A stretch of 42,105 nt of DNA from a virus. The position numbers were made by a program, and so were the translations under genes. Below the pieces are notes generated by a model that saw nothing but the letters and a program-made list of their open reading frames with translations, had not been told where the DNA came from and made no database searches. Location of the stretch: positions 1-42,105 of the IMG/VR virus record IMGVR_UViG_3300027749_000204. One strand, written 5' to 3'. Positions 652 to 27,105 of this stretch are shown here, in pieces (positions within the stretch are counted from its first letter, which is position 1; every line of letters starts with the position of its first letter).

Positions 652-679
652 AAATCAAAATATAATAAATACTATTACT

Positions 680-702: not shown

Positions 703-772
703 GATATTCAACTGTGGTAAACCCGCAATGCAAGGTGGTTAACCGTGAAACTCGGGGTACAAAGGAGCGTAA

Positions 773-1831: not shown

Positions 1832-1836
1832 GAATC

Positions 1837-2166
1837 ATGACCACCTATTTTAGAACAAAAGTAAACAAGGATATAGGAACAAGCCCAGTAGTGTTGTTAA
1901 GCACCTCTGCTTCAAATATTTTTACACTTATTGGATTGAGTTTAGCAAACACAGCAGACGAAGATGTAATTGTGGATGTTACAATCACTGATGCAACAAC
2001 TACTACAGGATTCTATATAAAACAATTAATAATTCCGCCCTACACCAGTGCCAAACTGGTACAACAAGGCGAAAAAATAATATTAGGCAATAGTTGTAGT
2101 ATTAGTGTAGTAAGCGACACCGCAGCCAGCATAGATTCAATTGCTAGCTACGCAGAAATAGCATAA
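1837..2166 (+). CDS. Small beta-sandwich virion protein
   Basis: 109 aa, predicted all beta. It starts five bases after the previous stop without an obvious Shine-Dalgarno, so it is probably translationally coupled. It shares its layout with the 110-aa protein at 15389-15721: a GT-S/T-P/Q-x-V start, a central 'V.V.V.D/N.T' strand, then 'IPPYTSAKLVQQGEKIILG' here and 'IPANSVLERTGLVLSAGQLL' there, and a C-terminal 'SIDSIASYAEIA' against 'GVNAVAYGIETS'. The two genes flank the pair of giant fibres. Such small proteins in T4-like marine phages are usually annotated only as virion structural proteins. A role in decorating or capping a fibre is inference. Confidence 0.65.
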   Translation: MTTYFRTKVNKDIGTSPVVLLSTSASNIFTLIGLSLANTADEDVIVDVTITDATTTTGFYIKQLIIPPYTSAKLVQQGEKIILGNSCSISVVSDTAASIDSIASYAEIA

Positions 2167-2175
2167 GGAGCAATC

Positions 2176-2544
2176 ATGTCTTCAAGCAATTACTTTTTTG
2201 GAAGAACAAAAGAAGAACAAATTGGAACAAGTCCGCAATATTTTTACGGGCTACGCAGGAACGATGACGGTGAACTATTTTTATCCAGAGTCAATCAATT
2301 AAGCCGAACTGATTCATTACAAGTTAACAACGACGGCGATGTTGCAAATAACTACGAAAATTTTGAAATAGGCACTGATTTTTATGAAAACAGAGATGTG
2401 TATCATAATATTGTTTTTAGCAATTTGATCTATGAACAATATCGCTGGGACGATCGTAGCATGTATTATTATGTCAACGCATCTGGTGATTTGACCGCCC
2501 GAATAAATACAAAGTATAGTTATCCAACAGGGATTTCAACTTAA
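2176..2544 (+). CDS. Small virion structural protein, YRWDDR-type
   Basis: 122 aa, preceded by an AAGGAG at 2165-2170 with a short spacer, nine bases after the preceding stop. It is rich in Tyr, Asn and Asp and predicted beta. The C-terminal half, YEQYRWDDRSMYYYVNASGD then LTARI and YSYP, resembles small conserved proteins encoded beside fibre genes in marine T4-like phages. It has no signal peptide, membrane segment or catalytic motif. The position between small structural genes and the giant fibre implies a virion component or assembly factor. I do not recognise a more specific function. Confidence 0.65.
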   Translation: MSSSNYFFGRTKEEQIGTSPQYFYGLRRNDDGELFLSRVNQLSRTDSLQVNNDGDVANNYENFEIGTDFYENRDVYHNIVFSNLIYEQYRWDDRSMYYYVNASGDLTARINTKYSYPTGIST

Positions 2545-2565
2545 AAATAATATAAAGAGCAGACT

Positions 2566-5500: not shown

Positions 5501-6543
5501 GAATTATGGATCCAGGATCAGGTTATGCATCAGCACCTACAATTGTAATAACTGATCCTAATCGAGGCGATCCAGTATCTTATGTTGTTCGAATAGGTAA
5601 CGGTGTATTATCAACTCCTAATTTTTCAAGCCGCGGAACTAATTATCTAACAGCATCTGCTACCATATTAACAGGTACTGGATATGCAGATGCATATCAA
5701 TACGGATCTTACTTGTATGTTAATAATTTAACAAATATTCCTGGCCCTGGTGCAAATATTACTATAAGTGGCAATCCAACAAATGCAACCAACTACCGGT
5801 TAGTATCAATTGATAATATATCAGGAGCTGGCCCTTATGCCGCTCGGATACAATTGAATCCAACATTAGATTTGGCATATGCACCTGACCAGGGCAATGG
5901 TTTGGTATTTAGAGTAAACTATAGTCAAGTTCGTTTGACTGGACACGACTTTTTGGAAATAGGTACTGGAAATTTTGCAACCACCAATTACCCTAATCAA
6001 GATATAACCACAATTAAATCTGGACACCTTGCAGCTGAATTTGGAGGCGGCCGCGTATTTTACACTGCTACAGACCAAGACGGCAACTTCAGAGTTGGAA
6101 CATTATTCAAAGTTGAACAAAGCACCGGAATTGCAACATTGAATGCTAGCTTCTTTAATTTGTCTGGCCTAACACAGATAAGTCTTGGTGCCATTGTGTT
6201 GGGTGGTACCAGTGCAACTATTACAGAAATATCAACAGATGCAACATTACCTGCTAACTCAGATGGAGTAATTGTTACTCAACGTGCAATCAAATCGTAT
6301 ATTGCATCTAGAATTGGTGGTGGCGGAGCTAATTTGTCAGTCAATGCAATAACAGCAGGTTTTATTAGTATTAGTAACAGCACAACTGGTGGTGTAGTAA
6401 ATCAGAACATACAAAATACACAAGGTTTTGATCCAGTGACAGGTGCCGCATATGCAATTGGATTTAAAAGCAAAGTATTATTCACAGGCGGTGTCGACGG
6501 ACACATGTTAGCAAGCTCGTATTTTATAGCGAGTATGCGTTAA
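2566..6543 (+). CDS. Giant tail-fibre/appendage protein with CBM-like repeats and beta-helix
   Basis: 1325 aa. Residues about 8-385 hold seven copies of a 35-45 residue repeat, W..xW...Y..GD.V.Y.G..Y.C...H, very like the chitin-binding type-3 (CBM5/12) fold. A phage-fibre linker (TDGQVLRVSGTNIQW) follows. Then comes a right-handed beta-helix of pectate-lyase type, beginning near residue 543 (YYVATYGTD, LDKPYRTVK, VGDELRGTVI). The last about 230 residues are the domain typical of marine T4-like structural proteins (VRLTGHDFLEIGTGN, GGGRVFYTATDQDGNFRVG, SDGVIVTQRAIKSYI). The 2929-aa downstream protein has the same order of domains. Likely role: surface-glycan binding, possibly with degradation, by a baseplate-attached appendage. 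No catalytic residues of a depolymerase could be assigned. Confidence 0.85.
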   Translation: MADFKIARIRYTWKGAWVGTTSYVKDDVANYGGKTYVCMVTHTSSSTFLPDLTATTPNWRLMFDGYTWRSTWAISTLYNPGDMVRYNGIVYRCLTSHTSNALIQNQISTVPVVGLDNVTGLEADQAKWEIVAKTHAWQNTWSINTRYKVGDIVKYGAIVYKCNTAHNSAASTSSGLEAHSSYWDVVLQQSEYKTDWTASYRYKVGDIVKWGGTLWKCNTQHTSNTFAIDLGNWAVYLDGLQYESNTWVNSTIYQEGDVVGYGGYKYRAIQNNVGQNPVIATAYWSTVTQNYNFRGDWAATYLLQPVNYLVGDVIRFNGYLYTAILDNTNVKPPNGTYWQQLNLGHAWRGVWQQDTFLAPVEYRLGDLVTFGSHTYNCILTHVADSTLKRPNQGSGAVFTVVKDGTTAYASVTVTTAGTGYYVGQQIVILGSSLGGATPTNDITLTVYTINVSKGITAVTFSGTATGGAGSTTGLTDPLIAQNYWENYVLGNPNNVMTTPGDTVWYNNSATARLPAGTDGQVLRVSGTNIQWTTFGAIFPKVYYVATYGTDLAGYGLTLDKPYRTVKYACDNVPSNSTIFIKTGIYSEQLPITIPADVALVGDELRGTVIQPASGYTGSNMFYVRNGTGIRNMTLQGLTGTLGPFNSYLTKRPSGGAYVSLDPLGATNPAAQITSKSPYVQNVTALGTGCVGLKIDGDLHGGGNKSIVANDFTMVISDGIGAWVTNKARSELVSVFTYYNHIGYLCENGGKIRATDGNNSYGDYGSVSEGTAADEIPITGTVNNIATPATIGFVFCDGQNVLGFEYDNAGKNYNSSTTFSITGTGLGATVSSAVVRNGGVMEIRLVDPGTGNSAGGSGYLNVVNNAQVGYASNGTIYLAQSDSNASVNYVGLRIVIIAGKGAGQYGYIQAYNATTKMATIYTESTQVSGWDHVVTGTAAVDLDTTTQYSIEPRVTFSTPTSGTLARARAVVVSGRISKFRIMDPGSGYASAPTIVITDPNRGDPVSYVVRIGNGVLSTPNFSSRGTNYLTASATILTGTGYADAYQYGSYLYVNNLTNIPGPGANITISGNPTNATNYRLVSIDNISGAGPYAARIQLNPTLDLAYAPDQGNGLVFRVNYSQVRLTGHDFLEIGTGNFATTNYPNQDITTIKSGHLAAEFGGGRVFYTATDQDGNFRVGTLFKVEQSTGIATLNASFFNLSGLTQISLGAIVLGGTSATITEISTDATLPANSDGVIVTQRAIKSYIASRIGGGGANLSVNAITAGFISISNSTTGGVVNQNIQNTQGFDPVTGAAYAIGFKSKVLFTGGVDGHMLASSYFIASMR
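3001..3027 (+). repeat. 27-nt exact repeat, copy 1
   Basis: This 27-nt tract, encoding RYKVGDIVK in one CBM-like repeat, is repeated base for base at 3166-3192 in the next repeat unit. The two units differ elsewhere, so the identity points to recent duplication or gene conversion rather than coding constraint alone. Confidence 0.9.
3166..3192 (+). repeat. 27-nt exact repeat, copy 2
   Basis: Second copy of the tract at 3001-3027, 165 bases (55 codons) downstream and in the same frame, inside the fourth CBM-like unit of the 1325-aa fibre protein. Confidence 0.9.
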
Positions 6544-6551
6544 TAACAATT

Positions 6552-6559
6552 GATAAATA
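6552..6559 (+). promoter_or_regulatory. Late-promoter-like octamer GATAAATA
   Basis: One mismatch from the T4 late consensus TATAAATA. It ends 26 bases before the ATG of the 2929-aa fibre gene, a spacing like that of the better matches at 24421 and 38675. A GGAG at 6576-6579 lies between it and the ATG. Confidence 0.5.
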
Positions 6560-6585
6560 TTATAAAGTTAATTTTGGAGTAGAAA

Positions 6586-9500
6586 ATGGCAGAATTTAAA
6601 CTAGGTAGAATTAGATTTGTATGGAAAAATACATGGGTCGCCGGCGGCACTACCTACATCAAGGATGACGTAGTAAGATACGGCAGTAAAACTTATGTTT
6701 GTATATTAGGACATACTTCTACTTCTAATTTTTATACAGATTTAACATCAAATTGGCAACTGGCCGCAGACGGTCAAGCCTGGTTAGGAACGTGGGTAAC
6801 AGGCGGAACTTATTATAAAGTAGGTGATACTGTTACATGGGGCGGTCAAGTTTATATTTGTAAAACAGGTCATGCTAGCCAAACATATCTTGAAGATGAT
6901 CAAGCCAAGTGGGAATTATTTGCCAGTGCATTCAACTGGTTAGGTACCTGGGCAATTAGCACATATTACAAAGTTGGCGACATTGTCAAGTACGGTGCAA
7001 CAGTTTATCGTTGCAAAACCAGTCACACCAGCAATTCATCTGCAACAACATTAGGCGGCGGATTAGAAGCTGATCAAACCAAGTGGGACATTGTTAATCA
7101 AAGTTTTGATTACAAAGGAACTTGGGCTGCCAGCGGAACACGTTACAAACTTAACGATGTTGTTAAAGAAGGTGCGGGACTTTGGATTTGTATAGGCGTT
7201 AACGTATCCGCTGCCACTTGGGCCGCTGATAGTGCTTACTGGGCCCGCTTTGTTGAAGGTTTAGAATTCATGAGTACGTACAGCACTTCTGTAGCGTATT
7301 TTCCAGGAGACGTTGTAACATACGGCGGATACAGCTATGTGTCAGCAACTAACAATACAAATCGTATTCCAACAGCTTATACTGGATCAGACTGGAATAT
7401 TTTAAGTACTGGATTTAATTTCCGAGGCGATTTTTCAACAGGTACTGCATACAAAGTAGGCGATGTTGCGAGACTAAATGGATACACATACCTAGCAATA
7501 CTTGACGGGACAAATCATCAGCCACCAAACTTAACATATTGGGAGCAGTTAAATCCAGGGTACAAGTGGATGGGTACATGGACAACTGCCAATTATGTTC
7601 TTGGAGACAGTGTTCGTTACAACAACAGTTCGTATGTTTGTATATTGGCACATACCGGTGCAACTGGTAATCGTCCTGACAATGATACATTGGCCACTTA
7701 CTGGAATCAACTGGCAGGTGGTGTTGAAACTTCAGTACTAACTACGCAAGGTGATTTGGTATATTATGGTGGTGCAGGCCCAGCAAGATTGCCAATTGGT
7801 ACTGACGGCCAAGTACTAACAGTAAGCGGGACCAATTTGGTATGGAACACATTTGGTGATATCGCCAATATTTATTATGTTGCCACTACAGGAACTGATG
7901 TAACCACCAACGGTCAAGGCACTACTTTAGACAAACCTTTTAGAACAATTAAATTTGCATGTGATACAGTGGCAGCAGGCACAACTTATCCAATTGCCAA
8001 CACTAGATTAGTTGCCAATACTAATTTTTTAACACGCGAAGTAGCTCAATTTATTGTTTATAATAAAGCCAACAGTGTTTCTCCATATCTTCCAGGTTCA
8101 GTTATTGACATAACAAAAACTATTCGCGATTCAAAGTTGATATTAGATGCTATCAGCCAAGATTTGATACGTTCTAGCAACGCCAATACTGTGGCTGTGG
8201 CACAATCATATTTTGCAACACCGACGACTTTTTACAATGCCGCAGTCACTTCAGACATGCCATTCTTTCTTCCGGCGTTAACATATTTAAAAACATTGGT
8301 TACAAATGCTATTAATAAAACAACACCAGCAAACAATTATCAAACATTAACTAGCTTTAGCCCAGTTGTGACTCAAGTAACTTCGGGCGGAACTGCTGAA
8401 GTTGGATCATTAACTGCTCTTAATAACTTGCTTGACATTGTTATCAATGCACTTACAGCTTCCAGTACAGCTGGTATTCCTTTGCCAACAACTGGTCAAA
8501 CAAGCACAATTTTTGTTAAGACAGGTACATTCAGTGAAATCCTTCCAATCAGTGTTCCAGAAAATACTGCAATCGTTGGTGATGAATTACGCGGAACTAT
8601 TATCCAACCAACAACTGGTTATACTACTAGCAACATGTTCTACATGCGTAATGGAACGGGTTTACGTAACTGTACACTACAAGGGTTGAACGGTACTCTT
8701 GGCACTGCCAACAGTTATGGCACACAGCGTCCAACAGCGGGTGCTTATGTTAGTTTGGATCCAGGTGCAGGACCTGATGATCCTAGTGTATGGATCTACA
8801 AACGTAGTCCGTATATACAAAACGTAACAACATTTGGCACTGGTGCAACTGGTTTAAAAGTTGACGGATCATTACACAATGGCGGAAACAGAAGTATTGT
8901 TGCTAACGATTTCACACAAGTTATTAATGACGGTATTGGTGCATGGGTAACAAATAATGCACGCTCAGAATTAGTATCAGTTTTCTCTTACTATGCACAT
9001 ATTGGTTATCTAAGCGAGAACGGTGGCAAAATACGTGCCACAAACGGAAATAACTCCTATGGAAAATATGGATCTGTTTCTGAATATGTGGATACTACAG
9101 AAACAGCAATCACAGCCAAAGTTAATAACCGTGCGTCACAAGCTCAAGTTGCCTACACGTTCACAAACGCCAGCTCCATATATAGATTAGAATATAGTAA
9201 CGCAGGTAATGCATATCCAAACACTGGAACTACTTTTGCATTCAGTAGTGCCAACGGAATCAATGCTGCCGCAGTTGGAGACGAAGTTAGAGACAATGCA
9301 GTATTTGAAAACAGAATGTTGACCACTGGTGCAGGATATGTAACTATTACAAATGTTGCACAAAGCGGAAGCACAACAGGAATAACAATTGCGGCATCAG
9401 ACGTGGCAGTAAGTGGAGCATATCTAGGAATGCGTGTTATTATTGCATCTGGATTAGGCGTCGGCCAGCAAGGATACTTTGTGTACTATAGTCAAGGTAC

Positions 9501-12500
9501 AAAAATTGGTGTTGTTGCAAAAGAAAGTTTTACAGCAATTACTGCAACTCAAGTGATTGCTTCAGGTGCTAAGATTGTAGTTCCAAGCACAACTTCTTTC
9601 TATGTTGGTATGCCTCTTGCATTTACCGGAACCACAATTGGCGGTTTTTCATCAGCGGGTGTTGTGTATTATGTTCAAGCAATTGTGTCAAGCACACAAA
9701 TTGCTATTACTGCAAGCCCAGGCGGCCTAGTAATTGCAAGCGGCCTATCTGATGCAACTGCTAGCACTATGATTATCAATGCGGCTGGTTGGGACCACAT
9801 AGTCGTTGGAACAGCCATTCAATCAGTATTGGATTCCACAACAACTTATGTTATTGAACCAAGAGTTACATTCACTGCACCAGCATATGCAACAACAGCA
9901 CGTACCGTACCAACAGGCACATGGAGTTCAACTACATTTGCAAACGGACGTTTTGTTGCAGTTGCAAACTCAGCAGGTGTATCTGCTTACAGTGTAGATG
10001 GTATCAACTGGACAGCAATGACAGGACTTTCTAGCTCTGCGTTCAACAGTGTGACGGCCGGTGCAATTAGTACAACCACTTACTTTGTAACAGTGGCCAG
10101 CGGAACCAGTTCTACCGTAGCATACTACAGCACAAACGGCACAAGCTGGACTGTTATGACAAGCCTGCAAGCTGCAAATTGGTCAGCTGTAGCGTATGGT
10201 AACAGCAGATTTATTGCTATATCAAACGGAACAGCCAGTTCATATAGCATAAATGGAACAAGCTGGAATGCAGGCGGATCTCTTGTTAGCAACCCATGGA
10301 CTGGTATTGCGTACGGCACAGGCCCAGGGTTATTTGTAGCAATTGCTGGCGGAACATCATTATCAACCGCAGCCGCATACAGTGTGGATGGAGTGTCTTG
10401 GACAGCAAGTACACTTCCACAAAGTGCATACTGGACAAGTATTTCTTGGGGTAACGGAAGATTTGTTGCAGTGGCACAAGGTGGTCAACAAACTGCATAC
10501 AGTACTGACGGTATTAATTGGACTACTCCCACAACATTATTACCAGCAATCTATGCTTGGAAAAATGTTGCATACGGTCAAGGCACATTCCTTGCTACTG
10601 CAAGTACATTAACTCCTACTATTACTGCGGCATATGCCAACAGTAATCAAATTCAGTTGAGTAGTTCAGCAGGTATGGCAACTGGTCAAACTTGGATTCC
10701 TACAGCCGTAACACAGAGCACAACTGCCACTGCGGCTGTTAGCACATTTGCAAGTCTCAGTAATACTTCAGTTACTGGAATTGCTGGTGCTTTAAATGTT
10801 CTTTCTCCAGGTATGGTTAATCAAGGTACTATTACAACTGGTATGATTATTGGTGGAAACGGTAGTGGAAACAACGTAGCATCTGCACAAAATATTGCAA
10901 TTACTGGTGCAAGTAATACCTCTGGAACAGTAACATTAACATTTAATGCACAAACTGAAGCATTAAGTGGAGTTACTACTACTGGTACAGCTGGACAATT
11001 TGCTTGCACAGCAACAACTGCACCGTTGATTGCAGGTCAAACAATGACACTTAGCGGCACATTGGGTGGTGTTACAATTACTGGTTATAGTACTCCAACC
11101 ACTTACTTTATTTTACAGACTAACGGGTCAACAACATTCCAGTTAGGAGGCGGAACCGCTGCCGCTGGACAAACATTTACCACTACAGGTACTACTACTT
11201 TAGGTATGGCATCTACTACTGGTTTAATAGCCGGACAACGTGTGTATTTTACTGGTGCAAACTTGGCAAGTGTTGGACTTATTCCAAATGTAACTTATTA
11301 TGTACTATCAGTAATTGCTAGCACTTCTATTACACTGAGTACTACAGCCAACGGACTTGCTGTTACTTTCTTAACAGGCACTGCCGCAACCAGCGTATAC
11401 GTATATGAAATTGGTGTTGGTGTTGTAACTACAGCAGGTACTCCAACTGGATTAAGTTACACATATTACAAAGCAATTCCGTTTGCACTTGGACAAAGTA
11501 TTTCGGTACAAGGTGTAACTCCAATCACTTATAACGGAAACTATAATGTTACTGGTTTGCCAACAACAACTAGTGTGCAGATGACTAATGCGGCCACTAC
11601 ACTACAAACATTAACAGGTGTGGTAATTACGGGTACAGGCGGCACATTTAGTTGTACATCTGCAACGTTGCAAATTGGACAACGTCTTGTTATTAGCGGA
11701 ACTTATGGCGGTGCAGGTTCAATTAGTGGATATACTGATCCAACTACATACTATATCATAGCTACTAACGGTACAACAACATTTACATTGTCTACATCGT
11801 TTGGCGGAACTGCTATAACAACCACAGCAGGTACTCCGACTGGATTAACTTACACATTAACCAGCACGTTTGTTGGTGCAGGTGTAGTGTATTCTAATCA
11901 ACTATATGTTACTGGATCAACTTCTTTTACATCAACTGCATCAAGTGCTAGTTCTACATCACTAACAATTGGCGGCACTGTAACTGGAACTGTTGCAATT
12001 GGTCAGGCACTTACTGGAAATACATTCAGTAATACATATGCTCAAGTAATGCCAGGTAATGCAGGAACATCTAATTTGAGTCTTGCAGGTATTACAGCTG
12101 GAACTCCAGCGGCTGGCATGTATATTGGTGGCCCGAACATTCCAACAACAACTTCAATTAGTGCAGTGAATTCAAGTACATTCTTTGCTGCCATTGCAAC
12201 AGGTACAGCAGTGACATTTACTGGTAGTATTGCACCAAATACTGCATTGAATGGATCGGCTGCTCTTGGCGGAACATTGTCAGTATCCACTGTCCCAAGC
12301 GGCAGTGGTATTGTGGTAGGTTATGTATTGAGTGGAACAGGTGTAGTGGGCGGAACTTATGTTGCAGCCAACTTGACAGGCACTGCTACAAGTAATCCAA
12401 GTACATGGACTGTGAACATTAGCCAAACAGTTGCAAGTACAACTATTACAGCTACGCCTGTAGTACTAAACGTATCAGGTGTTGGTGTTGGAACAGTTGT

Positions 12501-15375
12501 TCCTGGATCGGTTCTTTCCTGGACTGGTGGATTTGTTGCACAGAATTTAGCAATTACTAGCATTGTGGGCGATACTACACAAGCCACTGTGACGTTTACC
12601 TCGCCACAAAGTACTGCACCGTTTGCTGTTGGACAAGCAATTACCATAACAGGTAATAGTCAAGCAGTTTACAACGGAACATTCAACGTGCAAGCGTGTA
12701 CAACAACATTTGTTAGATTTGTTACAACATCTGGATTAACTGGAACAGGCGGAAACGTGGCTGCTCCGGGAACATTTGTTACTGCAAACTTTAGTGGAAC
12801 TGGCGGTGCAGGAACTTATTATGTAAGTCCAGCACCAACAGCTTCAGTTGCCGGTGGTACAAGTTTTAGCGGAACAGCATATACATTAACTTCACCAACT
12901 CTTAGTTCTGTAGTAGCAGTAGGAACAGGCGGCCAATTCACATGTGCTGCCACTACATTAGCAGTTGGACAAACCGTTGGAATTACAGGAACACTGGGTG
13001 GTATAACTCTTACAGGCTATGCAACTGGTGCAGTGTATTATATCATTGCCACTAACGGTACAACAACATTTACATTGTCAACAACTTCAAACGGTGTTGG
13101 TGTTGTAACTACAACAGGTACGCCAACTGGTTTAACTTATAACTTGAATAGTGTTTCTTACCAAAACAGTTCAATTGTTGGAAATAACTTGATTGGTTAT
13201 ATCACAGCATTTGGATCAGGCACCGGCGGTGCAGGAACATATACAATAAGTACACCTATCAGTTCTACCGGTACTATTGCAATTAGTGGTTTAAGCTACA
13301 CATTAAGCGGTACACAAACTACCACAGCAACACAAATTACTGGTACTAATAATTTGTTAACTGTGACAAGCTCAGCTGGTATGGCAGTGGGAGAATCAAT
13401 TGCATTTACTGGCACTAGCTTCAGCGGTATTGCTCCAAGTACACAAACATTGGCAAGCGTTACTACAACAGGTATTGCTGGACAGTTTGCATGTACAGCG
13501 GCAGTTCTTGTAATTGGACAAAAAGTAACTATTACAGGTACACTGGGTGGTGTGACTATTACAGGTTACACAACTGGCACTGTGTATTATATCATTGGAA
13601 CAAACGGAACAACTGCATTCACACTATCAACTACCAAAGACGGTGCGGGTGTGGTAACTACAGCAGGTACCCCAACTGGAATAACACTAGTTGTTGACGG
13701 TACTTACTATATTACAGAAGTTCCAAGTGCAACTGCAATTGGTGTAAGCACTAGTTTTGGTGGTGCTAACCAAGCAGTAACTAATGGTGCAACTGGATCA
13801 CTATCTGCAACAGCTGGTTCATACCTAGGCGGGTTGACCAGTGCGTCAACGTACTATGTTGCTACTATTAATAGTGCTACTAATCAGATCACAGTCAGCA
13901 CAAGTTCAACTTTGAGCCCAATCTTTGCTGTAACTGGCAACAGTGGCGGTGCATGGACCAGTGCAACTGGATTAGGTGCAGCCGCAAGTAGTCCAGACGG
14001 TATCAACTGGACCAGCAGAGCTATTACTAACAGTGCATGGAATGCATTAACATTTGGTAATACTAATACTAGTTTTACTGGAAGTATTTCAGGAACAACT
14101 TTAACTGTCACAAGTACTCCTACAGGTAGCGGTATTGTATCCGGTGCAGTACTAAACGGTATTGGAATTATTGCAGGTACGACTATCACAGGTAACTTGA
14201 CAGGATCGCAATTCAGTTCAAGTAGTACTTGGACTGTGGGAACTAATCATGCTACTGGAACAGGTAGTATTACTATTACATCTGGTGCTCCTATATGGGC
14301 AGTGATTGCAACGGGCGGAACCAGTGCATTGAGTATTCCAAACTTTACACAAGCACAAGCCCGTGCAGTTGTGGCATCAGGACAGTTGGCAAGTTTTAGA
14401 ATCTATGAACCAGGTTCAGGTTATACAACTCCTCCAACAATCACGCTTGGAGATCCAAATGCCACATCAGCCGCAACTTACACTGTGAGAACCGGAATTG
14501 GTGCATTGGGTAATCCAACATTTAGTAATCGCGGCACTGGATATACAACTGCTACAACTCTTGTGACAGGCACTGGTTATTCTGACACTTATCAAAACAG
14601 TCAGTACATGGTTGTTAATAATATGTCAGCTGTTCCAACCGCAGGATCAAACGTATTGTTTGCAGGAAATACCACTTACTATAAACTTGTTGTTGTGAGT
14701 AGTTTAACAGGTTCTGCAGGTAACTATAGTTGTGTATTGCAAATTAGTCCTAACATGTCAATACCGCTTGCACCAGTACACGGCGTGGCAATTGAAATGC
14801 GTATACAGTACAGTCAAGTTCGTTTGACTGGACATGATTTCTTGAGTATCGGTACTGGAAATATTGCGGCCACTAACTATCCAAATATTACTAATCCGGC
14901 CATTCCGGCAAATATGACGGTGGAGAATGGCGGAGGACGAGTATTCTACACAAGTACTGACCAAGATGGTAACTTCAACGTGGGTGGATTGTTTACTGTA
15001 CAACAAAGTACTGGTATTGCCACATTGAATGCCAATGCGTTTAACTTGAGCGGTTTACAAACACTACAATTGGGTGCAGTTAGCTTAGGAAGCTCAAATA
15101 CCAGTATCAATGCGTTCTCAACAGACGGCACATTTACAGCCAATAGTGATAGTATTGTGCCAACTCAACGTGCCATTAGAACTTACATTGCTAGCCAAAT
15201 TGGCGGCGGATCAAGTACAGTTAATGTAAATACGCTAGTAGCAGGAACTATTCAAATTACTGGAAGTACTATAACTAATACTGCCGGTACTCAGATAAAT
15301 ATAAAGAGTAAAGCTAACTTCACACAGGGAATAGATGGTAGTCCCTTAGCATTAAACTACTTCTTACTAAGATAA
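6586..15375 (+). CDS. Giant (2929 aa) modular tail-fibre/appendage protein
   Basis: A paralogue of the 1325-aa protein just upstream. It has seven CBM5/12-like repeats (about residues 8-375), a GDLVYYGGAGPARLPIGTDG linker, a beta-helix from about residue 430, and the same C-terminal domain (TGHDFLSIGTGN, GGGRVFYTSTDQDGNFNVG, PTQRAIRTYI). Three insertions explain its extra length. A mostly helical segment of about 175 residues (about 465-640) splits the first beta-helix turns. A run of Asp-box-like repeats (S.DG..W......W..V.YG.GRFVAV, about 1106-1340 and 2464-2490) follows the helix. More than 1100 residues of Thr/Gly/Ala/Ser-rich beta modules (about 1341-2464), with a second small block near 2493-2567, interrupt those Asp-box repeats. 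Start supported by GGAG at 6576. It is probably a long adhesin-like appendage; the receptor is unknown. Confidence 0.85.
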   Translation: MAEFKLGRIRFVWKNTWVAGGTTYIKDDVVRYGSKTYVCILGHTSTSNFYTDLTSNWQLAADGQAWLGTWVTGGTYYKVGDTVTWGGQVYICKTGHASQTYLEDDQAKWELFASAFNWLGTWAISTYYKVGDIVKYGATVYRCKTSHTSNSSATTLGGGLEADQTKWDIVNQSFDYKGTWAASGTRYKLNDVVKEGAGLWICIGVNVSAATWAADSAYWARFVEGLEFMSTYSTSVAYFPGDVVTYGGYSYVSATNNTNRIPTAYTGSDWNILSTGFNFRGDFSTGTAYKVGDVARLNGYTYLAILDGTNHQPPNLTYWEQLNPGYKWMGTWTTANYVLGDSVRYNNSSYVCILAHTGATGNRPDNDTLATYWNQLAGGVETSVLTTQGDLVYYGGAGPARLPIGTDGQVLTVSGTNLVWNTFGDIANIYYVATTGTDVTTNGQGTTLDKPFRTIKFACDTVAAGTTYPIANTRLVANTNFLTREVAQFIVYNKANSVSPYLPGSVIDITKTIRDSKLILDAISQDLIRSSNANTVAVAQSYFATPTTFYNAAVTSDMPFFLPALTYLKTLVTNAINKTTPANNYQTLTSFSPVVTQVTSGGTAEVGSLTALNNLLDIVINALTASSTAGIPLPTTGQTSTIFVKTGTFSEILPISVPENTAIVGDELRGTIIQPTTGYTTSNMFYMRNGTGLRNCTLQGLNGTLGTANSYGTQRPTAGAYVSLDPGAGPDDPSVWIYKRSPYIQNVTTFGTGATGLKVDGSLHNGGNRSIVANDFTQVINDGIGAWVTNNARSELVSVFSYYAHIGYLSENGGKIRATNGNNSYGKYGSVSEYVDTTETAITAKVNNRASQAQVAYTFTNASSIYRLEYSNAGNAYPNTGTTFAFSSANGINAAAVGDEVRDNAVFENRMLTTGAGYVTITNVAQSGSTTGITIAASDVAVSGAYLGMRVIIASGLGVGQQGYFVYYSQGTKIGVVAKESFTAITATQVIASGAKIVVPSTTSFYVGMPLAFTGTTIGGFSSAGVVYYVQAIVSSTQIAITASPGGLVIASGLSDATASTMIINAAGWDHIVVGTAIQSVLDSTTTYVIEPRVTFTAPAYATTARTVPTGTWSSTTFANGRFVAVANSAGVSAYSVDGINWTAMTGLSSSAFNSVTAGAISTTTYFVTVASGTSSTVAYYSTNGTSWTVMTSLQAANWSAVAYGNSRFIAISNGTASSYSINGTSWNAGGSLVSNPWTGIAYGTGPGLFVAIAGGTSLSTAAAYSVDGVSWTASTLPQSAYWTSISWGNGRFVAVAQGGQQTAYSTDGINWTTPTTLLPAIYAWKNVAYGQGTFLATASTLTPTITAAYANSNQIQLSSSAGMATGQTWIPTAVTQSTTATAAVSTFASLSNTSVTGIAGALNVLSPGMVNQGTITTGMIIGGNGSGNNVASAQNIAITGASNTSGTVTLTFNAQTEALSGVTTTGTAGQFACTATTAPLIAGQTMTLSGTLGGVTITGYSTPTTYFILQTNGSTTFQLGGGTAAAGQTFTTTGTTTLGMASTTGLIAGQRVYFTGANLASVGLIPNVTYYVLSVIASTSITLSTTANGLAVTFLTGTAATSVYVYEIGVGVVTTAGTPTGLSYTYYKAIPFALGQSISVQGVTPITYNGNYNVTGLPTTTSVQMTNAATTLQTLTGVVITGTGGTFSCTSATLQIGQRLVISGTYGGAGSISGYTDPTTYYIIATNGTTTFTLSTSFGGTAITTTAGTPTGLTYTLTSTFVGAGVVYSNQLYVTGSTSFTSTASSASSTSLTIGGTVTGTVAIGQALTGNTFSNTYAQVMPGNAGTSNLSLAGITAGTPAAGMYIGGPNIPTTTSISAVNSSTFFAAIATGTAVTFTGSIAPNTALNGSAALGGTLSVSTVPSGSGIVVGYVLSGTGVVGGTYVAANLTGTATSNPSTWTVNISQTVASTTITATPVVLNVSGVGVGTVVPGSVLSWTGGFVAQNLAITSIVGDTTQATVTFTSPQSTAPFAVGQAITITGNSQAVYNGTFNVQACTTTFVRFVTTSGLTGTGGNVAAPGTFVTANFSGTGGAGTYYVSPAPTASVAGGTSFSGTAYTLTSPTLSSVVAVGTGGQFTCAATTLAVGQTVGITGTLGGITLTGYATGAVYYIIATNGTTTFTLSTTSNGVGVVTTTGTPTGLTYNLNSVSYQNSSIVGNNLIGYITAFGSGTGGAGTYTISTPISSTGTIAISGLSYTLSGTQTTTATQITGTNNLLTVTSSAGMAVGESIAFTGTSFSGIAPSTQTLASVTTTGIAGQFACTAAVLVIGQKVTITGTLGGVTITGYTTGTVYYIIGTNGTTAFTLSTTKDGAGVVTTAGTPTGITLVVDGTYYITEVPSATAIGVSTSFGGANQAVTNGATGSLSATAGSYLGGLTSASTYYVATINSATNQITVSTSSTLSPIFAVTGNSGGAWTSATGLGAAASSPDGINWTSRAITNSAWNALTFGNTNTSFTGSISGTTLTVTSTPTGSGIVSGAVLNGIGIIAGTTITGNLTGSQFSSSSTWTVGTNHATGTGSITITSGAPIWAVIATGGTSALSIPNFTQAQARAVVASGQLASFRIYEPGSGYTTPPTITLGDPNATSAATYTVRTGIGALGNPTFSNRGTGYTTATTLVTGTGYSDTYQNSQYMVVNNMSAVPTAGSNVLFAGNTTYYKLVVVSSLTGSAGNYSCVLQISPNMSIPLAPVHGVAIEMRIQYSQVRLTGHDFLSIGTGNIAATNYPNITNPAIPANMTVENGGGRVFYTSTDQDGNFNVGGLFTVQQSTGIATLNANAFNLSGLQTLQLGAVSLGSSNTSINAFSTDGTFTANSDSIVPTQRAIRTYIASQIGGGSSTVNVNTLVAGTIQITGSTITNTAGTQINIKSKANFTQGIDGSPLALNYFLLR
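10606..13978 (+). repeat. Array of Thr/Gly-rich beta modules inside the giant fibre
   Basis: The insert carries an approximately 85-residue module (GQF.CTA..L..GQ...ITGTLGG, then TGY.TGTVYYII.TNG, then TFTLST and TTAGTPTGLTYTL) at about 10963-11160 (partial), 11611-11862, 12901-13150 and 13449-13700. Between copies are other recurrent pieces such as PFA.GQ.I...G....YNG.FNV and GSGTGGAGTYTIS. A second module type (SGSGIVVG.VLSGTGV..GT, then STWTV) at about 12220-12460 recurs at about 14068-14283, outside this array. The boundaries were read by eye. Confidence 0.75.
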
Positions 15376-15388
15376 ACGGAGATTTAAC

Positions 15389-15721
15389 ATGCCAGCAGCA
15401 ACAGGAAGATTAGGAACAGCAGATTTAGCAGGTACAATTGGTACCACGCAAACTGTGTACACTTGCCCAACAGGGTATTTTGCAGTAGTTAACGTTTCAG
15501 TAGTTAATAGAACTGCATCACCGGTAACAGCAAGAGTAGCAATTGCTACTTCGGCTAGTCCAGGTTTAGCAGAATGGATTGAATATGGAATAACTATTCC
15601 AGCTAATTCTGTGCTAGAACGAACTGGTTTGGTATTATCTGCGGGACAATTGTTAGCAGTATCTTCAAGTACTACCGGAGTTAATGCAGTGGCATACGGA
15701 ATTGAAACTAGCACAACATAA
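15389..15721 (+). CDS. Small beta-sandwich virion protein, paralogue of the 1837 product
   Basis: 110 aa. ATG is preceded by GGAG at 15379-15382, and the gene starts 13 bases after the giant fibre stop. The sequence is predicted all beta (TVYTCPTGYFAVVNVSVVNR, then TARVAIATS, IPANSVLERTGLVLSAGQLL, AVAYGIETS). The overall pattern, 'coat-like sandwich with IPANS...L.aGq.l', matches many small phage structural proteins and parallels the 109-aa protein at 1837-2166. It lies between the giant fibre and the Cys-rich pair and is probably co-transcribed with both. A role as fibre cap, collar or decoration is conceivable but not shown. Confidence 0.65.
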   Translation: MPAATGRLGTADLAGTIGTTQTVYTCPTGYFAVVNVSVVNRTASPVTARVAIATSASPGLAEWIEYGITIPANSVLERTGLVLSAGQLLAVSSSTTGVNAVAYGIETSTT

Positions 15722-15732
15722 GGAGTGATACA

Positions 15733-17322
15733 ATGGGACGTTTTGTACCAATTACAATAACAACAAGTATTGCTGAAAAAACAGCTCCCGTAGTTCCGGG
15801 TGCAAAAGTTTCTTATAACGGTAAACAATGTTGGCAATATAAAGTAGTATACGATAGACCAGGCACGTACACATTTACGGTGCCTACTGGTGCTATCTGT
15901 GCAAGAACAGTGATTGTTGGCGGTGGCGGCAAACCCAAGTGCGGAAGTGTAAACTTTGACGGCACAGTATGTAACAGTGCGGCAGGTGCAGGCGGTGCAT
16001 ATAGCGACAAGTGTCATGCAGTCACAGCTGGCAGCACTGCATTTACTATAGTGGTAGGTCGACAAGAACAAGATAGTACCGTGGCTTGCAACAGCGTAGC
16101 AGTGCATACAGCAGGTGGTGCTGCCGGAATGACTCCAGGAGCAGCTTCAGGAGGCGACTGGAACAGTCGTGGCGGATGTTCAGGGTGGACTTGTAACTAT
16201 TGCGGCGGATCATACAGTCACTATTGCGGTAGTTGTAAGTGTTTTGTTGCTGGGTCAGTTTGTGGATATTGCTATGTGATGCAATTTACTGAAGGCCAAG
16301 TTGGTTCTACTGCTTGTTGTAACATGATATTGGCAGGTGGAGCAAGTGCTGGATCTCCAAGAAACTTGTGCGGTGGTTGCTCCAGCATACTATGCGGAAA
16401 CTGTTTTAGTGGTGTAGCCGGCGGAGGCGGAGGCCTGGGTTCATCTTGCGTAACCAATGTTTGGTCATATCCTTGCTGTAGTTGTATTTGTTTTGCTCCA
16501 GCAAGCCCACAAGTTGGACGTTGGTGTATTGATTACCCAACATCAGTACAGGGCGGATATGGTAGTATCAAGTCAGATAGTCAGCAATGCAAAAGCACTG
16601 CTTATCAATGTATATATGGAATCTGGAAAGCTGGCGACGGCGGCCCTGGAGGCCCTGATACCAACGCGGGCGAAGCTTGGAAGGTAGAGTGGGGTTATTC
16701 AGGCTTGTGTGCGTACCCGTTTGGAGTTCAATGTTGGAATGAACAACAATGGACATGTACTGAACAAGCACCGTGTCGTGTGGACTGGTGGGATATTGCA
16801 GACATATGCGGTACTGGCAGTCCTGGTACTGGCATGTGGAGATCGATGACCGGTTGTTACGGCTCTGGTATGATTGGCCCACGTCCAAAAAATTCAGGCG
16901 AAGGTGCTGGCACAGGCGGCATTATGACATTCTGTTGCAATCCAAACCAATTTGGTAATATGTTGAGCGGTGGCAACCCCACAGACAATGTAAATTGGTT
17001 AAAACTATGTAGCTTAGGATTAACGGGGCAGTGCGATCAAGCATGGCTAATGCCAGACTCGTTATTTCCTATGTTTGTTACTTGTGCTGGAACATTGGGA
17101 GGATCAGGAGGTGTTGGTTGGTGTACCTATACTAGCAAAGCTGGCAAAGGCGGCGGCGGTGGCCAAGCAAAATGCCAATTTTTATGTATTTGCTGGGGCG
17201 GAGCATTCGATTGTTGTAACCAAGTGGCTTCAACACCATTGGCATTCCCTCCTTGCTTGTTAGATCAAATGCTCAGCAATGCCGGCACAGGTATGGCAAT
17301 TATATATTATAGGGAAGCATAA
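15733..17322 (+). CDS. Cysteine- and glycine-rich virion-associated protein (copy 1)
   Basis: 529 aa with about 46 cysteines (near 9 percent) and long Gly runs. The N-terminal part has the phage glycine-rich fold signature (GTYTFTVPTGAIC, then VIVGGGG, GAGGAYS, TIVVGRQEQDS, TPGAASGGDWNS). The C-terminal part has CAGTLGGSGG, KAGKGGGGG and GTGMAIIYYREA. Cysteines come as single residues, CC pairs and CxC/CxxC groups, without the regular spacing of one known zinc finger. There is no signal peptide or membrane segment. AAGGAG at 15720-15725 supports the start. It starts 11 bases after the preceding gene and is followed by a paralogue two bases downstream. Probably an extracellular part of the virion where disulfides or metal could stabilise a Gly-rich sheet; function unrecognised. 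Confidence 0.75.
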   Translation: MGRFVPITITTSIAEKTAPVVPGAKVSYNGKQCWQYKVVYDRPGTYTFTVPTGAICARTVIVGGGGKPKCGSVNFDGTVCNSAAGAGGAYSDKCHAVTAGSTAFTIVVGRQEQDSTVACNSVAVHTAGGAAGMTPGAASGGDWNSRGGCSGWTCNYCGGSYSHYCGSCKCFVAGSVCGYCYVMQFTEGQVGSTACCNMILAGGASAGSPRNLCGGCSSILCGNCFSGVAGGGGGLGSSCVTNVWSYPCCSCICFAPASPQVGRWCIDYPTSVQGGYGSIKSDSQQCKSTAYQCIYGIWKAGDGGPGGPDTNAGEAWKVEWGYSGLCAYPFGVQCWNEQQWTCTEQAPCRVDWWDIADICGTGSPGTGMWRSMTGCYGSGMIGPRPKNSGEGAGTGGIMTFCCNPNQFGNMLSGGNPTDNVNWLKLCSLGLTGQCDQAWLMPDSLFPMFVTCAGTLGGSGGVGWCTYTSKAGKGGGGGQAKCQFLCICWGGAFDCCNQVASTPLAFPPCLLDQMLSNAGTGMAIIYYREA

Positions 17323-17324
17323 AA

Positions 17325-18956
17325 ATGGGACGTTATATAAGTACAGGTACAGCATCAACTGCTACTGGAACAACTGTTACAATTCTTAATTCAACCTGTT
17401 ATCAAGTTACTAAACACAAGTATTCGTACGATCCAACAAGTTGCTGGGCAAATCGAGTTATAATAGATACACCTGGATCGTATACATTCACAGTACCGGC
17501 CGGCGCAACTTGTATACGTACCATTGCAGTTGGCGGTGGCGGAAAAGTCAAAGGTTGCAGTCCAGTATGTTGCGGTATGGCGGGTGCTGGTGGCGGCTAC
17601 GTGGAGCGTGTGGACACTGTGGCTTCGGGTTGTACTATCACTATAGTGGTAGGAAGACAAGAAGCAGATACCACCATCTCGTATACAAATAGTAGTGCTG
17701 TTTCTAGAACACTCACAGGTGGCGGTGCTGCCGCATGTACTCCAGGAGCAGCTTCGGGCGGTGATTGGAACAGCACAGGCGGTGCCGCTGGTTATAATTT
17801 CAGTGACGGCTACCAATGCGGAAAATGCGTTTATGTAACAGCTATGGCGGCTTGTTGCGGATATTGTTTGGTATATTCAGGCATTTCTGGCCGCCAACAA
17901 GATTCAAACACTGCGGATACTGCATATTGTGCTCCAAGTCACCCAGGTGGCGGCAGTGCTGGTTCGTGGATTTGGTCAACAGGCGGTGCAGGACAATGCA
18001 CACGTCAGCAAATGTCAGTGTGCCAAGGCGACGGCTATGCAGTAAAAGCCGCTGGCGGCGGCGGCATAGGTTATATTAGTCGCAATGTGCTTGGCGGTGC
18101 AAATTGTACTTGTATCTGCACCAAAAATCAATGCGGCGTTGGTTTTCCATTCCGTAAAACTTGTTATCCAGTTGGAACCGGCGGCGGAGGCGGAACAAAG
18201 TGGGTTTGCCAAACTTGTTACGAGTATTGGACTATTGACGGATTCTGTCAAGATGGTACATGGCGAATGGGCGAAGGCGGCTGGGGCGGGAAAAATAACG
18301 ATGAAGGCCGTAGCGAAATGATGTGGTATTTCTGTTCGGACACTGCCTGTATGGGTAGAAGTTTTTGGCACAAACAAGGCCCGTCACCTAAAACTTATCC
18401 GTGGCATGACATACATGAAATGGCCGGTTCAGGCAGTGCTGGTACAGGATTCCACGCAGTTTGTTATCAATCAGACGAAGGCAGCATGTGGAATCAAGGC
18501 CATCGTGTAAATCCATATAATTGTGTTAATGCAGGCGAAGGTGCAGGAACTGGAGGTGTAGCATATAATTGTTGCGAAATGAACTCTATGGGCATGTGCT
18601 GTTGCGTGGGCGGGGCAGATGCATACGTAGGCATCAACATGCTACTAGTGTGTTGTTTAGGCATCACTAACAGGGTATGTTGTGCAGATAAAATGTATGA
18701 TCAGTTGTTTCCGTTCGTTACTCACTGTGCAGGAACACTGGGCGGATCAGGCGGCGTTAGTACTTGTAATTTAGCATCACGTGCAGGTAAAGGCGGCGGT
18801 GCAGGTGTACCAAGAAATTATCTGCTGTGTGTATGCTATGGCGGCACATACGATCTATGTAATGGTTCAGGGCCTGCATTAGCATTCCCCCCAAGCGAAT
18901 TAGACTGGCGTGCAAGTATGGCAGGTACTGGCATGGCAATCATATATTGGAAATAA
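17325..18956 (+). CDS. Cysteine- and glycine-rich virion-associated protein (copy 2)
   Basis: 543 aa with about 42 cysteines, a clear paralogue of the 529-aa protein encoded two bases upstream. Shared landmarks in order are MGR at the N-terminus, G(T/S)YTFTVP.GA.C, VGGGGK, GAGG.Y, IVVGRQE.D, TPGAASGGDWNS, EGAGTGG, CAGTLGGSGGV and GTGMAIIY at the C-terminus. Between the landmarks the two diverge strongly, although both keep a high Cys content and many Trp and Tyr residues. It has CC and CCC clusters (for example MGMCCCVGG). Its own Shine-Dalgarno is the AGGGAAG overlapping the end of the upstream gene, so translation is probably coupled. Possible products are two subunits of a heteromeric tip or two alternative receptor-binding proteins; neither is established. 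Confidence 0.75.
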   Translation: MGRYISTGTASTATGTTVTILNSTCYQVTKHKYSYDPTSCWANRVIIDTPGSYTFTVPAGATCIRTIAVGGGGKVKGCSPVCCGMAGAGGGYVERVDTVASGCTITIVVGRQEADTTISYTNSSAVSRTLTGGGAAACTPGAASGGDWNSTGGAAGYNFSDGYQCGKCVYVTAMAACCGYCLVYSGISGRQQDSNTADTAYCAPSHPGGGSAGSWIWSTGGAGQCTRQQMSVCQGDGYAVKAAGGGGIGYISRNVLGGANCTCICTKNQCGVGFPFRKTCYPVGTGGGGGTKWVCQTCYEYWTIDGFCQDGTWRMGEGGWGGKNNDEGRSEMMWYFCSDTACMGRSFWHKQGPSPKTYPWHDIHEMAGSGSAGTGFHAVCYQSDEGSMWNQGHRVNPYNCVNAGEGAGTGGVAYNCCEMNSMGMCCCVGGADAYVGINMLLVCCLGITNRVCCADKMYDQLFPFVTHCAGTLGGSGGVSTCNLASRAGKGGGAGVPRNYLLCVCYGGTYDLCNGSGPALAFPPSELDWRASMAGTGMAIIYWK

Positions 18957-18969
18957 TTAGGAGAATTAA

Positions 18970-19509
18970 ATGAGTCACGGTAAAATTTGGGCAAAAATAG
19001 TAGATAACGAAATCATGCAGATACATGATGAAGATCCATCGGGTCTTTGGCATCCAGATGCACTAGAATTGTGGCAGGAAGTTCCTGAACATGTTCATGT
19101 GGGTTGGAAGTTTAAAAATGAAGAGTGGATTAGTGGCGGCCAGTGGCTAGATGAACACATAGCGGCAAACCCACCGCCTCCTCCCGGCCCGCCTTGTGGT
19201 CGTATTGATTACACAATTGGTGTTAATAATGAAACGTATAAAGCCACTGTATTGTTTGATATTCAGGTAGGCGGAATATGGACTGAGTTCTATGTTGACA
19301 TCGACGGCAAACGATATGAAAATTTAACTGAAAATGAGTATGTTGACCTTGAGTTAGTGTTTGATCAAGGTGATACACCCCGTCAAGTTCCTGTTATAAT
19401 CACAACAATTGGCCCAGGTGGTACACATGTTGAAGATTTAACGGATGTTGAAATTGAAAGACAACTTATCATTCCAGAAAAGTTTATTCCATTCTTTGCA
19501 AGAAAATAA
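18970..19509 (+). CDS. Tail-fibre-associated protein with Pro hinge
   Basis: 179 aa. The start is supported by AGGAG at 18959-18963. Residues about 1-60 (KIWAKIVDNEIMQIH, then GLWHPDALELWQEVPEHVHV, then GWKF) match the short N-terminal module found in many phage tail-fibre and fibre-assembly proteins. A proline stretch (NPPPPPGPPCG, about residues 72-82) separates it from an acidic, beta-rich C-terminal part (FDIQVGGIWTEFYVDIDGKR). It is the last gene of the fibre operon and is directly followed by a strong terminator. It could be a fibre-assembly chaperone or a small fibre subunit; the sequence does not decide. Confidence 0.65.
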   Translation: MSHGKIWAKIVDNEIMQIHDEDPSGLWHPDALELWQEVPEHVHVGWKFKNEEWISGGQWLDEHIAANPPPPPGPPCGRIDYTIGVNNETYKATVLFDIQVGGIWTEFYVDIDGKRYENLTENEYVDLELVFDQGDTPRQVPVIITTIGPGGTHVEDLTDVEIERQLIIPEKFIPFFARK

Positions 19510-24457: not shown

Positions 24458-25381
24458 ATGAAAAAAATATTTTTTATCAACGGTGGTGCAGGCAGGGTAC
24501 TTGCTAGCATTCCGGCATTAGAAGAAAGTCACAAACGAGGTGAATTGGGTGGAATCGTTTGCGAAGGAGGCATGGAGTTTTATTTGGGCCATCCTATTCT
24601 GCAAGATTTTGCGTTTGACGTCAATCACAAGGGTATTTTTGAAAATCTAATTAAAGATAACTTGTGTGTTAGTCCTGAACCGTACAGGGATCATGAATAT
24701 TATAATCAGCGTAGTAGCTTACAACAAAGTTTTTGGTGGGAAATTTTAGGTGAAAGAACTACAGTGAATATTAAACCCACTGTTGTATTAAACAAGTCCG
24801 AAGAAATGTCAGCAATGGAAATTCTCGGACAAGTACGTCAACAACATCAAAAAGAAAAAACTATTGTTATTCAACCATTTGGTCGAAGTAGCAATCTTGG
24901 CGGTAGTATAGTATATGATCAAAGTAGTAGAAGTTTAGAGCAATCGACTTTTATGGAACTAGTAGCAGAATTATCTAAAGATTACAATATCATGTACATG
25001 GGAGAACACAAATTAAATGTAGTTAATCTTCCAATCTTCCAGCCCGATAATAATATGCCATTACGAATTTGGGCCGCAATTATTGAGGCAGCAGATTATT
25101 TTATTGGATGTGATAGTGTGGGACAGCATCTTGCTTATGCATTTAACAAACCTGGTACAATTGTGTGTGGAAGTACATTTCCTGTAAACATCACATACCC
25201 TGAACACTTTAATATTGTGGAAAAGAAGGATGCAGTACGACATTATAGTCCAATTAGAATTGCAGGATTTGCTGCCGAAGAAGCAGATAGACTTAACGAC
25301 ACAATTATGGATTTTAGTAAAGATGAACTTAAAAGTATAATTGCAGGTATTAAAGCACATATTTCAAAAACAACAAAATAA
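24458..25381 (+). CDS. GT9-like (heptosyltransferase-type) glycosyltransferase
   Basis: 307 aa. The N-terminal FFINGGAGRVLASIPALEE resembles the first strand and Gly loop of GT-B family 9 enzymes. The C-terminal half has the hallmark donor-site stretch: IWAAIIEAADYFIGCDSVGQ, then HLAYAFNKPGTIVCGST (Asp219, Ser220, His224). TIVIQPFGRSS (about 135-145) matches the start of the second Rossmann domain. These enzymes move a nucleotide-activated sugar onto LPS-type or other glycans in the cytoplasm. An AAAGGG at 24447-24452 precedes the ATG. It lies 11 bases upstream of the carbamoyltransferase, and the two form an operon with dual promoters. Acceptor and donor are unknown. Confidence 0.68.
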   Translation: MKKIFFINGGAGRVLASIPALEESHKRGELGGIVCEGGMEFYLGHPILQDFAFDVNHKGIFENLIKDNLCVSPEPYRDHEYYNQRSSLQQSFWWEILGERTTVNIKPTVVLNKSEEMSAMEILGQVRQQHQKEKTIVIQPFGRSSNLGGSIVYDQSSRSLEQSTFMELVAELSKDYNIMYMGEHKLNVVNLPIFQPDNNMPLRIWAAIIEAADYFIGCDSVGQHLAYAFNKPGTIVCGSTFPVNITYPEHFNIVEKKDAVRHYSPIRIAGFAAEEADRLNDTIMDFSKDELKSIIAGIKAHISKTTK

Positions 25382-25392
25382 GGAATTAACAC

Positions 25393-27105
25393 ATGTGGTT
25401 ATTAGGAATTAATGTAGGACATAACGGTGCGGCTGCACTGTATAAAGACAGCGAATTAATTTTTTATATTGAAGAAGATCGGTTGAGCCGAATGAAGTAC
25501 GACGGCAATCCGTTTTTAGGTATTGAAAAAGCATTTGAATATACAGATCACATTGATTTTGTTATTTTATGCGGAACACGAAACGCATTTGGCCAAGTGC
25601 CGTGGACTGGCGAAGATGCATATACCTGTTTAGTGCGTAAGAAACAGCCAGGACATCATGTAGAAACTATTAAGTTGGGCGACGATCACCATATGACACA
25701 TGCTGTTACTGCATTTTATAACAGCGGATTTGATGATGCGGCCGCCATTGTGATTGACGGTGCAGGTAGTGGAATTAATATTCCAGACTTAAAAGACATT
25801 TGGCTAGAGACATGGGAAGTAGAATCTATTTGGAGTATGGGATATCCTGCAGAAATTAAACGACATCTAGTTAATTACGGTACAAATCTTGTTGATAGTT
25901 TTGAATTACTTGATGACGATTGCCATATCGAAGTATCAGATGGTCACGGCATTACCAAAAGTTACGAAGCTGTAACGCAATACTTGGGATTCCATGCCAT
26001 TGAAGCTGGCAAGACCATGGGTATTGCACCTTACGGTAAACCCAATGCTAATATTAAAATTCACGATGGTAGATTTAACAACAGAAGTTTAATCAAGCCA
26101 AAGTTTCCTGCTGGAAATGTTATTAGATGTGATTTAAATCCAGAATTAAAAGAGCATGAAGGTGATGTTGCATGGCATACTGATCCCGATCTCATTGACG
26201 ATTTTAGAAAAGATCTAGCATATGCTGTACAGAAATCAGCAGAAGAACGTGTGATTGCATTAATTAAGAAAACAATTGAATTGACTGGTAAGAAAAAGAT
26301 TGTTATGGCCGGCGGTTTTGTTTTAAATTGTGTGGCTAATTATGAATTCTTAAAAGAATTTCCAGATGTTGAATTTTATCACGAACCAGTAAGCCATGAT
26401 GGTGGTAATGTAATGGGGGTATGCCAACATGTATACCGAACAATTACTAAAGATTCTGTCAAAACACCGTTGACAAGTTTATATCTTGGGCTTGATCACA
26501 GTAAGGAATATGCAACTACAGATTTTAGTGGATTTACCGTTGAAGATACAGATGCTTCCGTTGTAGCAAAACTCATTGCAGATGGCAACATTGTTTGCTT
26601 GTATCAAGGGCGTAGTGAAGCAGGCCCACGTGCGTTGGGAAATCGTTCAATTTTATTTGACCCAACAGTTATTAACGGTAAAGATATTGTTAATGAAGTT
26701 AAACATCGTGAATGGTTTAGGCCGTTTGCAGGATCAGTAATGGCAGAACATGCCAGCGAGTGGTTTGATTTTCGCTCACGCACAGATAGCCCGTTTATGA
26801 TGTATGCTGTAAATGTGTTGGAAGATAAACAAGCATTAATTCCAGCAATTACACACGTGGATGGAACTTGTAGAATTCAAACTGTAACATCGGAACAAAA
26901 TCCGCATTATTACAAACTAATCAGCGAGTTTAACAAACTAAAAGGTGTACCTATTTTATTTAATACCAGTTTTAATCTTGCTGGCGACCCGCTGGTTGAA
27001 ACTGTTAAAGAAGCATTGGCAACACTTGAAAAGTCTGAATTGTGTTATTTGTGGATGCCAGATATTGGAAAACTACTAACAAAGAATAGTTTTAAAGAAG
27101 TATAA
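25393..27105 (+). CDS. NodU/CmcH/TobZ-family carbamoyltransferase
   Basis: 570 aa, full length for the family. The N-terminal ASKHA-like domain has LGINVGHNGAAALYKDSELI, the metal-site DDHHMTHAVTAFYNSG (His99, His100, His103), VIDGAGSG and EAGKTMGIAPYG (about 204-215), then AGGFVLNCVANY. The C-terminal domain has EAGPRALGNRSIL (about 407-419), HVDGTCRIQTV (about 489-499) and PILFNTSFNLAGDPL (about 520-534). It should use carbamoyl phosphate and ATP to make a carbamoyl adenylate and place the group on a hydroxyl. Known acceptors in the family are sugars and antibiotic scaffolds; phage members have been reported to act on 5-hydroxymethylcytosine in DNA. AAGGA at 25381-25385 precedes the ATG. 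A bidirectional terminator follows immediately. Confidence 0.93.
   Translation: MWLLGINVGHNGAAALYKDSELIFYIEEDRLSRMKYDGNPFLGIEKAFEYTDHIDFVILCGTRNAFGQVPWTGEDAYTCLVRKKQPGHHVETIKLGDDHHMTHAVTAFYNSGFDDAAAIVIDGAGSGINIPDLKDIWLETWEVESIWSMGYPAEIKRHLVNYGTNLVDSFELLDDDCHIEVSDGHGITKSYEAVTQYLGFHAIEAGKTMGIAPYGKPNANIKIHDGRFNNRSLIKPKFPAGNVIRCDLNPELKEHEGDVAWHTDPDLIDDFRKDLAYAVQKSAEERVIALIKKTIELTGKKKIVMAGGFVLNCVANYEFLKEFPDVEFYHEPVSHDGGNVMGVCQHVYRTITKDSVKTPLTSLYLGLDHSKEYATTDFSGFTVEDTDASVVAKLIADGNIVCLYQGRSEAGPRALGNRSILFDPTVINGKDIVNEVKHREWFRPFAGSVMAEHASEWFDFRSRTDSPFMMYAVNVLEDKQALIPAITHVDGTCRIQTVTSEQNPHYYKLISEFNKLKGVPILFNTSFNLAGDPLVETVKEALATLEKSELCYLWMPDIGKLLTKNSFKEV

Follow-up and report, generated by a model that had tools for sequence, protein, structure and literature searches.

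Phage structural proteins are normally poor in cysteine, which raises the question of what more than 40 Cys residues per chain are doing in each of two adjacent proteins, probably involved in host attachment, that are encoded in a 42,105-nt stretch of DNA from a T4-like bacteriophage (IMG/VR record IMGVR_UViG_3300027749_000204; the whole of this stretch is referred to here as the window). Copy A (positions 15733 to 17322, plus strand) consists of 529 amino acid residues, 46 of which are Cys (8.7%, alongside 17.6% Gly). Its paralog, copy B (positions 17325 to 18956, plus strand), is ~42% identical to it and contains 42 Cys among 543 residues (7.7%, with 17.9% Gly). A recount reproduced exactly the Cys richness and the positions of this tandem pair given in a preliminary description of the locus. 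The other 27 open reading frames of the window that were taken as genes encode, when pooled, 65 Cys residues out of 12,509 (0.52%), and the binomial probability of the observed Cys counts at that frequency is ~3e-40 for copy A and ~9e-35 for copy B. In the explanation favored here, which we consider to have a probability of about one half, A and B are receptor-binding tips of a contractile tail that belong to the class of adhesins combining TNF-like and glycine-rich parts, and it is largely disulfides, arising outside the cell, that hold their loops in place.

Both reading frames are real genes, as indicated by the full-length homologs of copy A (49 to 62% identity) and copy B (45 to 58% identity) and by the dN/dS values of 0.07 to 0.23 in close pairs. 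The two copies were found in tandem and in the same order in at least 17 further distinct IMG/VR contigs, up to 356 kb in length, typically following a long fiber gene and a short gene space and preceding a small downstream gene. The preliminary description named homologs with few Cys residues as an argument against its view, but nearly all the homologs retain their cysteines, usually 41 to 53 per protein, which supports a conserved role of these residues. In the phylogenetic tree, all A copies are separated from all B copies and the branching is broadly parallel within both groups, so the duplication must be old, and A and B have been inherited together. No psbA photosystem gene was detected in the related contigs, so they cannot be called cyanophages on this evidence. 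In one contig (L017), copy A is intact, while the gene for copy B (positions 5599 to 7223) is broken into two open frames of 393 and 124 aa, suggestive of a frameshift or a misassembly. Another, assigned to an actinobacterial metagenome-assembled genome (L060, positions 1 to 12020), carries the end of copy A and the whole of copy B followed by bacterial-looking genes and is probably chimeric or misbinned.

The N and C termini and ~13 glycine motifs are conserved in both copies and are separated by variable, Cys-bearing loops, which bears out the earlier impression of conserved landmarks with diverged interiors. An AlphaFold2 model of a single chain, obtained from a 37-row alignment (pLDDT 77.6, pTM 0.81), has a predicted beta-sandwich formed by the chain ends, with glycine-rich loops inserted into it. 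Its best PDB match in VIA-align was the fiber of cyanophage Pam3 (7ypx, Z 11.4, rmsd 8.1 Å over 178 residues; 7yfw, Z 10.6, rmsd 4.5 Å over 175), followed by the Bxb1 tail tip (9d93, Z 9.4) and the glycine-rich extracellular domain of ALK/LTK (up to Z 8.8), against Z scores of 3 to 4 for unrelated rows. The S16/T2 gp38 adhesin (6F45) was not among the VIA-align matches listed. Bxb1 is a mycobacteriophage of a different type and ALK and LTK are animal receptors, and no sequence relation of A and B to either was found. The adhesin reading has to accommodate the high rmsd of one of the two Pam3 alignments and the fact that Foldseek, taken alone, had no PDB match below E 0.001; a sequence profile search of the PDB had none either. 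When run against BFVD, Foldseek retrieved mostly phage proteins with glycine-rich domains (best E 4.6e-7). Copy B scores above the cutoff of the Pfam family Gly_rich_2 (PF21722; 27 bits versus 24.3), and copy A alone does not match it; across the alignment, PF21722 is matched by 8 of the 37 members, some others being near the cutoff, and PHROG 863 (“tail fiber assembly”) by 6 of 37.

The closest described protein is Pam3 gp24 (7YPX, 7YFW), a trimer with TNF-like and glycine-rich parts whose six loops terminate in a distal tip that is variable and has been suggested to contact the host (PMC9608196). The A and B models resemble it in the TNF-like sandwich, the inserted glycine-rich loops, and the tail-fiber context. 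However, the modeled gp24 chain has 250 to 280 residues, about half the length of A and B, and six loops, compared with ~13 glycine motifs, 42 to 46 Cys, and two tandem copies here; the paper on it makes no mention of Cys or disulfides. On the basis of the model, A and B are thus best placed closest to the glycine-rich adhesins, as TNF-like sandwiches with inserted glycine-rich loops. The tail or adhesin identity suggested in the preliminary description gains support from the model matches to the Pam3 fiber and the Bxb1 tail tip and from the tail-fiber genes next to the pair; we infer that A and B are located in the virion and bind a receptor.

Upstream of the pair, a 2,929-aa fiber (positions 6586 to 15375, plus strand), rich in Gly and Thr and similar to the tail fibers of Pelagibacter phage Mosig and of cyanophages, is followed by a gene for a 110-aa protein (15389 to 15721, plus strand), an ortholog of PSSM2_302 (46% identity). 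The large fiber and the preceding one (positions 2566 to 6543), which contains seven CBM_5_12 stretches, begin alike (MA[DE]FK..RIR). Directly downstream of the pair, in the window as in its relatives, lies a small gene; in the window (18970 to 19509, plus strand) it codes for a 179-aa protein that may act as a chaperone in assembly or as an accessory protein. An Ig/PKD-like fold is seen in residues 73 to 174 of its product, and the N-terminal part resembles Tfa by eye only, with no Tfa match in Pfam, PHROGs, or the PDB and fold comparison. Further downstream, orthologs of PSSM2_307 (24458 to 25381, plus strand, 41% identity) and of the Nol-like carbamoyltransferase PSSM2_308 (25393 to 27105, plus strand, 46% identity) serve as synteny markers.

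These markers lead to a corresponding locus in cyanophages that have been cultured. The genes of P-SSM2 from the fiber PSSM2_301 through PSSM2_302, 303, 304, 305, 306, and 307 to the carbamoyltransferase PSSM2_308 are arranged as in the window, and PSSM2_304 and PSSM2_306, with 36 Cys each (10.1%), are the two most Cys-rich of the 179 P-SSM2 open reading frames of at least 120 aa. Three Cys-rich proteins are encoded in S-CAM3 (T040910_100 to 102, 24 to 36 Cys) and three in tandem in S-SSM7 (28 to 30 Cys, ~11%), and tandem relatives are also found in S-CAM1 (SXBG_00224 to 226) and, as a triplet, in Sf-FS3; the copies counted in P-SSM2, S-CAM3, and S-SSM7 contain 8 to 11.6% Cys. In P-SSM2, S-CAM1, and S-CAM3, the locus is flanked by a long fiber gene and a ~106-aa gene on one side and the carbamoyltransferase gene on the other. 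Like A and B, these proteins, annotated as hypothetical in the cyanophage records, are tandem, Gly-rich and Cys-rich, and related to Gly_rich_2, but they are shorter (261 to 356 aa versus 529 to 543 aa). Similarity to the window pair spans no more than ~55 columns (E 9e-7 in hhalign, probability 91%), which leaves gene position as the main argument for a common origin of the Cys richness; in the one pair compared by BLASTP, only short motifs were alike. The cyanophage relatives were identified through synteny and PF21722, whereas a tblastn search of INPHARED phages with A and B gave no match at E 1e-3, probably due to filtering of low-complexity glycine-rich sequence and to the divergence of the relatives. 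Gly_rich_2 members from Mosig, Phosso, pEa_SNUABM_47, and P-SSM2 (PSSM2_126) contain only 0.1 to 0.8% Cys. As the Mosig protein, which occupies the corresponding place in that pelagiphage (0.8% Cys), and PSSM2_126 are both Gly-rich and Cys-poor, the Cys richness is a trait of the module and not of the fold.

The cysteines are under strong constraint. Among the first 13 copy A sequences aligned, 20 columns have Cys in all 13. In three close pairs per copy (85 to 93% identity), Cys residues are retained in 97.9% of cases, Gly in 97.1%, and others in 85.8% (Fisher p 3e-11 for Cys versus residues other than Cys and Gly), and each pair has 7 to 18 silent TGT/TGC changes at Cys codons. Together with the low dN/dS, these figures make it unlikely that the Cys richness stems from drift or composition and point to selection on Cys as strong as that on the structural glycines. 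The receptor-driven divergence envisaged in the preliminary description finds no support at the level of the gene, where most of the variation is silent, and the same dN/dS range of 0.07 to 0.23 argues against gene-wide diversifying selection. A reverse transcriptase of the RVT_1 family, a sign of diversity-generating retroelements, was not found in 8 related records, which are mostly fragments. Columns between the glycine motifs have about twice the Cys frequency of the third of columns that is most conserved, and a fringe of Cys columns beside the conserved core is gained and lost singly on the tree.

These observations would fit the favored model of disulfide-fixed tips as follows. In each chain, the two terminal parts would together form the beta-sandwich, and the ~13 glycine-rich motifs between them would carry a loop set larger than that of Pam3 gp24, in a pair that would stem from the old duplication. 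The Cys residues concentrated between these motifs would fix the long loops by disulfides that, we infer, form after lysis, in oxygenated water; a minority of them would remain free or link chains. An odd Cys total, which leaves at least one Cys of the respective chain outside any intrachain pair, occurs in over half of the A and B sequences, and co-changes of Cys columns on the tree (34 repeated ones against a null of 32 ± 8, in a test of low power) do not suggest paired gain and loss; hence, not every Cys is in a fixed intrachain pair. In keeping with the model, no thioredoxin gene (PF00085) was found in 8 related records that are mostly fragments. A search for the sulfhydryl oxidase Evr1_Alr gave no match, and neither did its controls.

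The main competing explanation, which we regard as unlikely, retains the adhesin fold and has the Cys residues mainly bind metal, as Zn or Fe-S; the metal would fold the tips while they are still inside the reducing cytoplasm, or it would sense redox at the cell surface. Strongly conserved Cys clusters, [CV]CGYC, CCxCIC, and LC[IV]C, could represent such sites, and the odd totals and the single-column turnover suit sets of ligands better than strict pairs. However, no Pfam metal-site family was matched in the A/B family, and CxxC is not enriched in the A and B copies (0.9 to 1.3 times, versus 1.5 to 1.9 times for adjacent CC), in keeping with the earlier remark that no single zinc-finger spacing is followed; assignment to a zinc-finger or Fe-S family was rejected on these two grounds. 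Genes for A-type Fe-S carriers (PF01521), two per contig, are present on the longest related contigs, of 356 and 280 kb, which would favor a metal role, yet P-SSM2 and S-CAM3, with equally Cys-rich proteins, have no PF01521 match, so a link between these carriers and the Cys-rich proteins is not general. The loop cysteines could also be neither oxidized nor metal bound and serve mainly as small, weakly hydrophobic residues that help to pack a fold rich in glycine and poor in core. Compatible with such a packing role are the single turnover of the peripheral Cys columns and the Gly content, which is ~16 to 20% in Cys-rich members and 23 to 32% in three Cys-poor ones, with a similar sum of the two residues. 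Nevertheless, Cys-poor relatives manage the same fold, and the retention of Ala, Ser, Val, and Thr in these proteins falls far short of that of Cys, which makes this role rather improbable.

Cysteines that link A to B, the chains of a trimer, or the tip to the fiber or baseplate would account for the odd totals and for the joint inheritance of the two copies, and they would have a parallel in the Agrobacterium phage Milano, where Cys38 of the short tail fiber is disulfide bonded to the baseplate (PMC10811340). Since a few residues would suffice for such links, the 41 to 53 Cys per chain spread across the loops far exceed the need, and we hold inter-chain bonding as the principal role to be quite improbable. 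Milano is also a precedent for many virion disulfides and functional cysteines in a contractile tail, with bonds in the sheath, the baseplate, and the fiber attachment; its structural proteins contain 2.1% Cys, flagged as high against 0.9% in T4 proteins (PMC10811340), compared with 8 to 9% in two probable tip proteins here.

A and B appear to be a variant, rich in Cys and so far undescribed, of phage adhesins with TNF-like and glycine-rich parts: no description of these proteins was found in the open-access literature searched, although an earlier account elsewhere is possible. A conserved locus of probable tail adhesins, with proteins of ~8 to 12% Cys, is shared by uncultured T4-like phages and marine cyanophages of Prochlorococcus and Synechococcus. 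If the cysteines are oxidized or metal loaded in the virion, the way in which some abundant aquatic phages recognize their hosts would hinge on redox or metal chemistry. A more speculative and, in our estimate, improbable extension is that these phages, some with contigs of 280 to 356 kb, have redox- or metal-controlled tips, in which dozens of conserved Cys per chain would hold the tip in a folded or shielded state until, once the phage is released, they become oxidized or loaded with metal; adsorption would then depend on redox conditions in the water or at the host surface. Finally, A and B share the start MGR[FYS][VI] (window positions 15733 and 17325) with small proteins encoded next to the Cys-rich arrays of P-SSM2 and S-CAM3 (L061, positions 13367 to 13642, and L062, positions 12711 to 13037), and this start is possibly a common attachment motif.
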